From Bacillota bacterium (lineage in GTDB: Bacteria; Bacillota; TC1): a stretch of DNA of 36,730 nucleotides. Positions within the stretch are counted from its first letter, which is position 1. Each line of letters starts with the position of its first letter. Below are positions 4,776 through 36,723 of this stretch, piece after piece. The stretch lies in contig JAQUGR010000011.1 of NCBI GenBank assembly GCA_028683955.1, positions 1-36,730 of the forward strand. The letters are read 5' to 3'. The notes beneath the pieces were generated by a model. The model saw nothing but the letters and a program-made list of their open reading frames with translations. It had not been told where the DNA came from and did not search any database. The position numbers and the translations under genes were made by a program.

Positions 4776-5738
4776 TTAACCTCCTATTTGAGACATTTTC
4801 CTACGTTGATTTCCCCATCCATCTTCCATATTATGTCCCTCTGGTTTGCCTAATATAATTTTTTGAACAAATTCTCTTAGCTCTTCATCACTTGCACCCT
4901 TACGTATCAGGGATAAAACATCATATTCCTTATCAATATATAGGCATGGTCTAAATCGTCCATCAGCGGTCAATCTAAGCCTATTACAAGTGCTACAAAA
5001 CTTATGAGACAATGCTCCAATAAATCCTACAGATCCTACAGCCCCAACAATATTATAATTCTCAGCCGGACCATTAGTACGTATATGAGTGTTTTCTTCT
5101 AACTTATATTTAGTCTCAATCAATGTTTTAATATCATCTATCGGATAATGCTTTAATATAGCCTCTTCATCACTTTCACCAATCGGCATTAATTCTATGA
5201 ACCTTACCTGAACCTCCTTATAATAAGCAAAATCGATAAATTTAATAAATTCATCATCATTAAAACCTTTAATAGCTACCACATTTATTTTTACAGGATT
5301 TAGCCCTACTTCTATAGCCTTATCAATTCCCTTAAGGACTTTCTCTAAATTACCCCATCTAGTTATTTTTTTAAATTTATTTTCATCAAGTGAATCTAAA
5401 CTAACATTTACTCTAGACAATCCTGCTTGTTTCAACCCATCTGCCATCTCTTCTAGTAAAATACCATTTGTTGTTAAAGTAATATCCTCGATTTCAGGTA
5501 TACTTCTAATCATCTTTATTAATTCTTCTATATTTTGTCTAACTAAGGGCTCCCCTCCAGTTAAACGAATCTTTTTAATACCCAATGGTACTAAAGCCTT
5601 AATTAAGTTGTAAATTTCCTCAAAACTCATCATATCCTGATGTTTAAGTAATTCTACCCCCTCTTCAGGCATACAATAAACACATCTCAAATTACATCTA
5701 TCTGTAATCGATATTCTTATATAATCAATTTTCCTCAT
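4776..5738 (-). CDS. moaA: GTP 3',8-cyclase MoaA (radical SAM)
   Basis: MoaA performs the radical rearrangement of GTP that starts molybdopterin synthesis. The N-terminal radical SAM motif is C15-x3-C19-x2-C22, the SAM-binding LTGGEPL is at 59-65, and the C-terminal cluster ligands are C248, C251 and C265 in KFCSTCNRLRL...FRPCLY. The protein ends in the Gly-Gly dipeptide typical of active MoaA. Its ATG shares one base with the stop codon of the upstream gene, so the two are translationally linked. Confidence 0.97.
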   Translation of the reverse strand: MRKIDYIRISITDRCNLRCVYCMPEEGVELLKHQDMMSFEEIYNLIKALVPLGIKKIRLTGGEPLVRQNIEELIKMIRSIPEIEDITLTTNGILLEEMADGLKQAGLSRVNVSLDSLDENKFKKITRWGNLEKVLKGIDKAIEVGLNPVKINVVAIKGFNDDEFIKFIDFAYYKEVQVRFIELMPIGESDEEAILKHYPIDDIKTLIETKYKLEENTHIRTNGPAENYNIVGAVGSVGFIGALSHKFCSTCNRLRLTADGRFRPCLYIDKEYDVLSLIRKGASDEELREFVQKIILGKPEGHNMEDGWGNQRRKMSQIGG

Positions 5739-6250
5739 TATTCCACACTACTTTCTGCCGCACTTTTAACGTAACTATTTATTCCTACAGTATCATATGG
5801 TACATAAAAACATTTAATTAAATCACCATTACCATCACATAAAATGACCACAGGTAAACTTTCAATATTATATTTATCTATAAAGTATTCAGATTCCTTA
5901 CTATTCGCATCTTGTCTATAAGTAATATTAAAAACCATCATACTATCATTTGCATCTTTAACTATATTATTCAAATCATTTTTATTATCATTTGTCACTT
6001 GTGAAAAATCATCCCTAATTACAACTAAATATGGCAACTTATCTTGTTTTAAATTATCTAATCTTTCAAAAACACTATAAGAACTATCACCACTTGTACT
6101 TTTTACTGCAAAATAAATAAATAAAGCAACTAAAATAAAACCAAATAATCTAAAGAAAAAACTCACTTTAGATTTCTTTGGCTTATATTCACCTTTTCCC
6201 TCTATTTTACTATCATTTTTCTTTTTAATACGTTTTCTATTTTCTTCCAA
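5738..6250 (-). CDS. Membrane-anchored thioredoxin-fold protein lacking a CXXC motif
   Basis: The 170 residues comprise a very basic cytoplasmic tail (about 1-30), one transmembrane helix (VSFFFRLFGFILVALFIYFAV), and an extracytoplasmic domain of about 110 residues. The outer domain ends with YFIDKYNIESLPVVILCDGNGDLI, which has the cis-proline LPVVIL strand of thioredoxin folds. The usual redox CXXC is absent; LVVIRDDFSQVT takes its place. A redox function is therefore unlikely, and a binding or scaffold role is possible. Translation starts at TTG with AAGGAG seven bases upstream. Linkage to moaA is by a 1-base overlap, and the DnaA-box cluster lies just upstream. The family is not recognised. 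Confidence 0.6.
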   Translation of the reverse strand: MEENRKRIKKKNDSKIEGKGEYKPKKSKVSFFFRLFGFILVALFIYFAVKSTSGDSSYSVFERLDNLKQDKLPYLVVIRDDFSQVTNDNKNDLNNIVKDANDSMMVFNITYRQDANSKESEYFIDKYNIESLPVVILCDGNGDLIKCFYVPYDTVGINSYVKSAAESSVE

Positions 6251-6271: not shown

Positions 6272-6325
6272 TTATCCACATTTTCCACATACATCATGAT
6301 ATTAATCTGTGGATATTGTGGATAA
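6272..6325. promoter_or_regulatory. Cluster of four DnaA-box-like nonamers
   Basis: Four nine-base units abut in pairs: TTATCCACA at 6272-6280 (perfect DnaA box), TTTTCCACA at 6281-6289, then on the other strand ATATCCACA at 6308-6316 and TTATCCACA at 6317-6325 (perfect). The two pairs face each other across an 18-base AT-rich spacer. The cluster ends one base before the tsaD stop codon and fills the only real gap in the long co-directional block. It resembles DnaA-box clusters known outside oriC. Binding by DnaA is inferred. Confidence 0.6.
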
Positions 6326-17903: not shown

Positions 17904-17938
17904 CAAAAAAAATCTATTACCACGCAAGTAATAGATTT
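17904..17938 (-). terminator. Riboswitch-controlled intrinsic terminator ahead of thiT
   Basis: On the minus strand AAATCTATTAC, a 7-base loop and GTAATAGATTT form an 11-bp stem followed by a run of Ts. It lies between the TPP aptamer and the thiT ribosome binding site, the expected position of an expression platform. It would also stop readthrough from clpC. Confidence 0.9.
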
Positions 17939-17951
17939 ATTTCTAAATATA

Positions 17952-18036
17952 TTTCCCTACGCTAGTATTACCTAGATCAGGTTATGGGTCGTGAGTTACA
18001 CTCACCTCTCAGCCGATTTTTCAGCTCCCCTTATAA
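17952..18036 (-). ncRNA. TPP riboswitch (thi-box)
   Basis: On the minus strand the conserved blocks are in order: GGGGAGCTG near the 5' end, GGCTGAGAGGTG, a short P3 hairpin (GTGAG with CTCAC), GACCC, AACCTGATCTAGGTAATACTAGCG and TAGGGA. These are the pyrimidine-sensing CUGAGA and pyrophosphate-sensing ACCUGAUCUGG-like motifs. A terminator follows before thiT, so binding of thiamine pyrophosphate should switch the gene off by attenuation. Confidence 0.96.
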
Positions 18037-18043
18037 CTATTTA

Positions 18044-30327: not shown

Positions 30328-30416
30328 TGGTGCCTGAGGCCGGACTTGAACCGGCACGGACTTTAACATCCGCAGGATTTTAAGTCCTGTGTGTCTGCCA
30401 ATTCCACCACTCAGGC
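30328..30416 (-). tRNA. tRNA-Leu (UAA)
   Basis: The GCCTGAG acceptor pairs with CTCAGGC, A73 is followed by an encoded CCA, the anticodon loop is CTTAAAA (anticodon UAA), there is a long class II variable arm, and the T-loop is GGTTCAAGTCC. Confidence 0.97.
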
Positions 30417-30445
30417 AATTGACACCAAAAATATTAAGTTTTTAA

Positions 30446-30520
30446 TGGAGGCGACGCCCGGATTTGAACCGGGGATGGAGGTTTTGCAGACCTCTGCCTT
30501 AGCCACTTGGCGACGTCGCC
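30446..30520 (-). tRNA. tRNA-Cys (GCA)
   Basis: The acceptor is GGCGACG/CGTCGCC with U73 (typical for tRNA-Cys) and encoded CCA. The anticodon loop is CTGCAAA (anticodon GCA) and the T-loop is GGTTCAAATCC. Confidence 0.97.
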
Positions 30521-30525
30521 TTATA

Positions 30526-30600
30526 TGGAGCGGAAGACGGGATTCGGACCCGCGACCCTCTCCTTGGCAAGGAGATACTCTACCACTGAGCCACTTCCGC
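30526..30600 (-). tRNA. tRNA-Gly (GCC)
   Basis: The acceptor is GCGGAAG/CTTCCGC with U73 and encoded CCA. The anticodon loop is TTGCCAA (anticodon GCC) and the T-loop is GGTCCGAATCC. Confidence 0.97.
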
Positions 30601-30624
30601 CTATGTGACCCCAAATAAAAAAGT

Positions 30625-30700
30625 TGGTGGGCGTTGACGGGATCGAACCGCCGACATCTTGCTTGTAAGGCAAGCGCTCTCCCAGCTGAGCTAAACGCCC
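30625..30700 (-). tRNA. tRNA-Val (UAC)
   Basis: The acceptor is GGGCGTT/AACGCCC with A73 and encoded CCA. The anticodon loop is CTTACAA (anticodon UAC) and the T-loop is GGTTCGATCCC. It is the first gene of the tRNA operon. Confidence 0.97.
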
Positions 30701-31456: not shown

Positions 31457-31822
31457 GACTGGAATTACATTAAGCCTGATTCTGTCTTAGGATAATCATC
31501 TATCTAATCCATTTCTGGATTCCCGCCGCCAGTTCTTAATTCCCTTAAGCAGGTTCCCCTCTCAGAGGGTTTCTAGCAAGATGGGGTTTACGTCGTCTCA
31601 CTCCTTTTATTACTAAAAGGCATCGTCACTATAGCACTTTTACAACCTACTAGTTCCATTTAGGAAACTTTCGGTAGCCGTTAGGTTACCCTCCCAAAGG
31701 TTGCCCTTTGCACCTTTTCTACAAGCAGGCTCCACGCCTTGTGTAAATCACATCACAGCTTGTGCCAGCCAGGACTTTCCTCAAGGATTATTAATCCCCG
31801 CGATTATCTTGTAATTCCAATC
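31457..31822 (-). ncRNA. rnpB: RNase P catalytic RNA
   Basis: On the minus strand the 366-base RNA carries GAGGAAAGTCC near its 5' end, AAAGTGCTATAGTGACG and GACGACGTAAACCCC mid-molecule, and CAGAATCAGGCTTA near its 3' end, all landmarks of bacterial RNase P RNA. The ends pair as helix P1 (GATTGGAATTACA with TGTAATTCCAGTC), which fixes the boundaries. The 5' end is only 5 bases from the stop codon of the upstream gene. Confidence 0.95.
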
Positions 31823-36607: not shown

Positions 36608-36723
36608 AGCTGGCAACGTCCTACTCTCCCAGGACCTACATCCAAGTACCATCGGCGCTGAAGAGCTTAACTTCTGTGTTCGGTATGGGAACAGGTGTGG
36701 CCTCTTCGCTATCGTCACCAGCT
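36608..36723 (-). rRNA. rrf: 5S ribosomal RNA
   Basis: The minus strand reads AGCTGGTGACGATAGCGAAG at the 5' end, CCCATACCGAACACAGAAGT (the universal loop) in the middle, and GGGAGAGTAGGACGTTGCCAGCT at the 3' end. The ends pair as helix I. A T-run follows directly. The upstream 23S and 16S genes would lie right of the window. Confidence 0.97.

Follow-up and report, generated by a model that had tools for sequence, protein, structure and literature searches.

A mirrored cluster of DnaA boxes behind tsaD, probably an old replication-control site of the Bacillota

Introduction

Why should a compact set of DnaA boxes lie directly behind tsaD, within a run of housekeeping genes and away from the replication origin? 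The question is raised by one contig of a member of the Bacillota (GTDB lineage Bacteria; Bacillota; TC1; assembly GCA_028683955.1, contig JAQUGR010000011.1), all 36,730 nucleotides of which are referred to here as the window. The original prediction, made from the letters of the window, described four nonamers abutting in pairs around an 18-base spacer and offered three functions for them: titration of DnaA, a tie between transcription and replication, or a block to polymerase within the operon. A genome-wide scan for such pairs, the distance to oriC and conservation in related species were named as checks.

The gene tsaD was formerly called gcp. Among the regions of B. subtilis DNA that DnaA binds in vitro, the one downstream of gcp and ydiF ranks fourth in strength; it has 10 boxes, and the apparent Kd is 0.15 uM for ATP-DnaA and 0.33 uM for ADP-DnaA (PMC4447404). 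The removal of all six non-oriC clusters from B. subtilis led to early initiation, which was partly relieved by re-adding one of them (PMC5295017). In E. coli, datA, DARS1 and DARS2 adjust the availability or the nucleotide state of DnaA (PMC5295017, PMC4585315).

The element and its neighbors

The window holds the following features at the locus:

6272..6280, plus strand: outer DnaA box 1, TTATCCACA, perfect
6281..6289, plus strand: inner DnaA box 2, TTTTCCACA, adjoining box 1
6290..6307, no strand: spacer of 18 bp, fixed in length and variable in sequence among relatives
6308..6316, minus strand: inner DnaA box 3, ATATCCACA, one mismatch
6317..6325, minus strand: outer DnaA box 4, TTATCCACA, perfect, adjoining the tsaD stop codon
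6326..7348, minus strand: tsaD, tRNA N6-adenosine threonylcarbamoyltransferase (Pfam TsaD, E=9e-91)
5738..6250, minus strand: next gene, TTG start, small membrane-anchored protein, start codon 21 nt from the element

Positions 6272-6325 thus hold a mirrored set of four DnaA boxes (9+9 / 18 / 9+9) in 54 bp, and the coordinates, the two perfect outer boxes, the abutting pairs and the spacer are all as originally described. The element can also be described as an inverted repeat of 21 nt around an 18-nt spacer. Read along the minus strand, the tsaD stop codon TAG is followed by TTATCCACA-ATATCCACA-18 nt-TGTGGAAAA-TGTGGATAA, then by 21 nt that contain a ribosome-binding site, and then by TTG. The inner box TTTTCCACA is a full match to the looser DnaA-box consensus TTWTNCACA (PMC7561715).

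Among the neighbors named at the outset, tsaD, the TTG start and moaA (downstream of the 5738-6250 gene; Pfam Radical_SAM/Mob_synth_C) stand. The label "thioredoxin-fold" for the product of 5738-6250 found no backing, as searches of Pfam and NCBIfam gave no match; by eye, the C-terminal part of this protein recalls a thioredoxin fold without the CXXC motif. The window takes up all of contig C9 and ends at a 5S gene, probably an assembly break at an rRNA operon. It also carries these RNA features:

17937-18041, minus strand: TPP riboswitch
30331-30700, minus strand: four tRNAs
31467-31815, minus strand: RNase P RNA class B
36608-36722, minus strand: 5S rRNA

Chance and a twin locus in the same genome

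Single boxes occur at about chance frequency, both in the window (20 with at most one mismatch, 14.9 expected) and in the genome (26 perfect boxes, 22 for the reversed control), so that the case for a cluster rests on its arrangement. The 54-bp geometry was found exactly twice in the 1.59-Mb genome (15 contigs), and the reversed pattern not at all, which bears out the earlier statement that the arrangement would be improbable by chance. The two matches are:

C9, 6272-6325: element 1, at the tsaD 3' end, 54-bp geometry pattern
C15, 142108-142161 (L029, 4109-4162; genome G000): element 2, its twin, between comFC (comF-family) and hpf, identical geometry

At another place in this genome, a direct tandem of boxes 1 nt apart, TTATCCACANTTATCCACA (three mismatches), is a match at chance level only. 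As had been supposed, the tsaD element is far from dnaA, which is on another contig (C7:85455) together with its upstream boxes (C7:85315-85455). In the DnaA of the host an N-terminal domain, an AAA+ domain and a C-terminal HTH domain were recognized, and its domain IV is normal.

A DnaA-box cluster has been defined by at least three DnaA boxes with a mean spacing below 100 bp, the Mackiewicz criterion as it is cited in PMC7561715. The element has four boxes (at most one mismatch to TTATCCACA) within 54 bp, it lies outside oriC, and its boxes are above chance and conserved in the surveys of the genome, the class and the phylum. Judged by sequence, its assignment as a non-oriC DnaA-box cluster is supported.

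Conservation in the family and the class

At least one match to the 54-bp geometry was present in all six family genomes searched, and relatives in which both loci are assembled have boxes at tsaD and at comFC-hpf alike. The spacer is always 18 nt among family relatives while its letters vary; there is hardly any variation in the outer boxes or in the right inner TGTGG. At the tsaD locus, the genus and the sister genus keep both the sequence of the boxes and their exact phasing, with one inner box lost in the relative G004. In the class sample of 10 genomes, boxes begin 0-10 nt past the tsaD stop codon in all nine full-length tsaD loci, which belong to two GTDB families. The second of these (G006-G009) has a plus box, about 26 nt and two abutting minus boxes, with a differing layout in G006. 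It also has inverted boxes upstream of hpf, which in G008 take the form of two perfect-box pairs about 73 nt apart. The loci are thus kept while each family has an exact spacing of its own, which is what one would expect of sites bound by a protein. The check for conservation in related species is therefore passed, since boxes and phasing hold in the genus and sister genus and clusters extend beyond the genus.

Boxes behind tsaD across the phylum

Of 398 Bacillota genomes, 393 gave a TsaD locus. At 32 tsaD loci with long flanks, nine of them from the class, 125 boxes with at most one mismatch lie 0-250 nt after the stop codon, against 2-8 in every other 250-nt bin. This amounts to 15.6 boxes per kb, against 0.3-1.0 per kb in neighboring bins, in a count made by simple mismatch rules and not by a binding matrix. 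Most of the boxes after tsaD (107/125) point against the gene. At 50 further loci, one per family, at least three boxes were found in 27 (control, 0/50), with 133 boxes in total (control, 9) and 58 perfect ones (control, 0). Outside the class, about half of the families sampled have no recognizable cluster behind tsaD, in samples that favor TsaD sequences close to the query. No cluster was found behind tsaD at the TsaD loci examined from non-Bacillota records. The layout of a plus box, 26-27 nt and two abutting minus boxes recurs in families f1, f2 and f39, which may reflect either common ancestry of the clusters or repeated origin.

In some of these clusters the boxes have a companion. The motif GAACNNNNGTTT/C, a putative LexA/SOS-box-like site that resembles the LexA operator of Gram-positive bacteria, adjoins the boxes in eleven tsaD clusters from at least seven families:

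L125, L126, L127, L128, L161, L162, L167, L168, L171, L173, L178: tsaD 3' flanks with GAACNNNNGTTT/C, in other families than that of the window

Anywhere in the clusters, it occurs in 12 of 51, against 0.65 expected from shuffling and one for the reversed motif, and it is absent from the window's own family. It sits at a fixed place relative to the DnaA boxes. This fixed position would be in keeping with a common descent of the motif-bearing clusters, and the motif might connect the DnaA cluster with DNA damage.

A second hot spot at comFC-hpf

The perfect abutting pair TGTGGATAATGTGGATAA was found in 136 of 398 genomes, with none in the control. Among the 150 pairs listed, 82 are in genomes with a listed tsaD position, and 33 of these 82 are found 3' of tsaD at a distance of 27-1285 nt, every one in the same orientation. 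The genome-wide scan proposed at the outset has thus yielded a concentration of pairs behind tsaD in a single orientation. Likewise, 64 of the listed pairs belong to genomes for which an hpf position was listed; 20 of the 64 are 215-3102 nt 5' of this gene, and each of the 20 is oriented opposite to it. Where ComFC is recognizable, this second site lies roughly 100-370 nt after comFC, even with genes inserted before hpf. The region 3' of comFC and 5' of hpf is, for the Bacillota, another hot spot of perfect pairs that abut. The idea of a class-specific comFC-hpf cluster, based on 450 nt upstream of hpf that are empty in other classes, was given up, as the pair scan placed the cluster 3' of comFC, at distances from hpf of as much as 3.1 kb. 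No pair lies within 4 kb of dnaA in those complete genomes that were checked.

Some pairs lie elsewhere. In family f74 (L264, L265) a perfect abutting pair directly precedes a gene of the DnaB/DnaD replication-initiation family (PF07261). In family f21 (L260, from a 6.4-Mb genome) the pair is 3' of an ABC-F gene, with no tsaD within 1.5 kb. Because the B. subtilis cluster lies between gcp and ydiF, the f21 cluster may have remained beside a ydiF-like gene.

Comparison with known clusters

The element resembles the B. subtilis gcp-ydiF cluster (region 4) in that its boxes lie directly downstream of tsaD and outside oriC; it adjoins the tsaD stop codon. The original prediction had drawn a general analogy to B. 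subtilis, which turns out to be closer than proposed, as the same gene, tsaD (gcp), is involved. Both clusters also fall on the origin-proximal half of the chromosome (B. subtilis, 627,955 of 4.2 Mb; PMC4447404). In contrast, the B. subtilis cluster has 10 predicted boxes between convergent genes and measured DnaA binding, whereas here there are four predicted boxes in a strict 54-bp mirror, co-directional genes and a twin at comFC-hpf. The B. subtilis clusters at sda/yqeG, ywlC, trmE, ywcI/vpr and yydA are likewise multi-box and non-oriC, and those are DnaA-bound (PMC4447404). Unlike the element here, the other B. subtilis clusters are mostly upstream of genes that they regulate, and none of the eight strongest B. 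subtilis regions is at comFC-hpf (PMC4447404).

As non-coding clusters of DnaA boxes away from oriC, the elements are also comparable to E. coli datA, DARS1 and DARS2. E. coli datA differs in its need for IHF and in its genes and layout, and B. subtilis is without IHF, Hda, Dam and SeqA (PMC13220808). A limited literature search found no report that the gcp cluster is conserved beyond B. subtilis or throughout the phylum, none of a comFC-hpf cluster, and no paper linking DnaA boxes to tsaD or comFC. To our knowledge, no nucleotide-switching activity has been described for Bacillota clusters.

Discussion

What do these clusters do? The simplest reading is that they titrate DnaA or assemble it locally, and among the three functions offered earlier titration fits best with the analysis. 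We consider it likely that the element is a compact and mirrored variant, particular to its lineage, of an ancestral cluster 3' of tsaD in the Bacillota, which binds DnaA and limits the free initiator. More probably than a local oddity, it is a replication-control site of long standing. For the host organism, we infer both DnaA binding and a titration role. DnaA would bind the outer perfect boxes, and the inner abutting boxes would be bound cooperatively. The elements at tsaD and comFC-hpf would then take up DnaA away from oriC soon after their loci are replicated. Duplication of these sites soon after initiation would presumably take up new or ATP-bound DnaA; free or ATP-bound DnaA would be lowered and premature re-initiation restrained.

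Where the sites lie bears on this mechanism. The tsaD element is on a separate contig from dnaA, and the distance could be read from the sister genus: in its one chromosome contig that starts at dnaA (G001), the tsaD cluster is 298 kb from dnaA, at 18.8% of the contig, and the comFC-hpf cluster is at 29.5%. Where dnaA could be placed, in 31 genomes, the origin-proximal half usually holds tsaD, at a median of about 20% of the chromosome (range 8-47%, with some lengths rounded). Against this reading, four boxes are few for a sink compared with the 10 in B. subtilis, the inner boxes are imperfect and one of them is lost in G004, and about half of the families sampled beyond the class have no recognizable tsaD cluster. 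A more far-reaching proposal is that tsaD and comFC-hpf form a Bacillota-wide replication-control pair, a counterpart of datA/DARS, in which the paired boxes build a head-to-head DnaA complex that would change the activity of DnaA instead of merely soaking it up, with the LexA-like site as a link to DNA damage in several families. We regard this as unlikely.

Could bound DnaA instead repress or block the following gene (the membrane-protein gene with moaA, or hpf at the twin) in step with the replication state? Each element is closely followed by a ribosome-binding site, with a distance to the start codon of 21 nt in one case and about 24 nt in the other, and B. subtilis DnaA regulates genes such as sda and ywlC via such clusters (PMC4447404, PMC8203912). 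A weak TTGAAA -35-like hexamer was seen by eye upstream at hpf in most of the genus, but no promoter-like site stands above background at the window element. Across the Bacillota, moreover, the gene after tsaD belongs to many unrelated groups while the cluster stays, and a cluster that inserted genes separate from hpf remains with comFC, about 3 kb away from hpf. The B. subtilis gcp-ydiF cluster lies between two 3' ends (PMC4447404). Because the following gene varies while the cluster stays with tsaD or comFC, its regulation is unlikely to be ancestral, and a transcription-replication tie or a polymerase block is less favored as the primary role. Transcription control is thus rather unlikely as the explanation; given the position of both elements before a ribosome-binding site in this lineage, a secondary effect on expression is possible.

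An inverted repeat that is transcribed could also act as RNA, as a processing site, a weak terminator or a structure ahead of the ribosome-binding site. For the minus strand a fold of -21 kcal/mol (z = -2.8) was computed, and two pairs are changed on both sides in the family alignment, a count reached by 18 of 500 shuffles. Yet 5 of 10 sequences do not keep the pair C15-G40, among them each of the four distinct hpf sequences from the genus, and changes such as A to T at box position 3 equally follow the DnaA consensus. The element has no T-run terminator, no Rfam match and no stem with consistent covariation that leads into a T run, and the hairpin and terminator readings were rejected. Since the clusters of the phylum are mostly one-directional (107/125 boxes, as above), they cannot form such a hairpin, and an RNA role is very improbable. 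Coincidence of AT-rich nonamers, or a small transposed repeat, would agree with the chance frequency of single boxes. It would not account for a geometry confined to two loci, the same two in relatives, with variable spacers and a control of zero, nor for the positional enrichment across the phylum and the 100% orientation bias of the pairs; we give it next to no weight.

Titration of DnaA by conserved clusters would bear on how DnaA is limited in Bacillota, which are without homologues of Hda, SeqA or an IHF-dependent datA. The B. subtilis clusters were already known, and their generality is not evident from the literature searched. A caution follows for annotation: such clusters should not be read as regulators of whichever gene comes next. 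Present across many families, the clusters at tsaD and comFC are candidates for a general and ancient device of initiation control.
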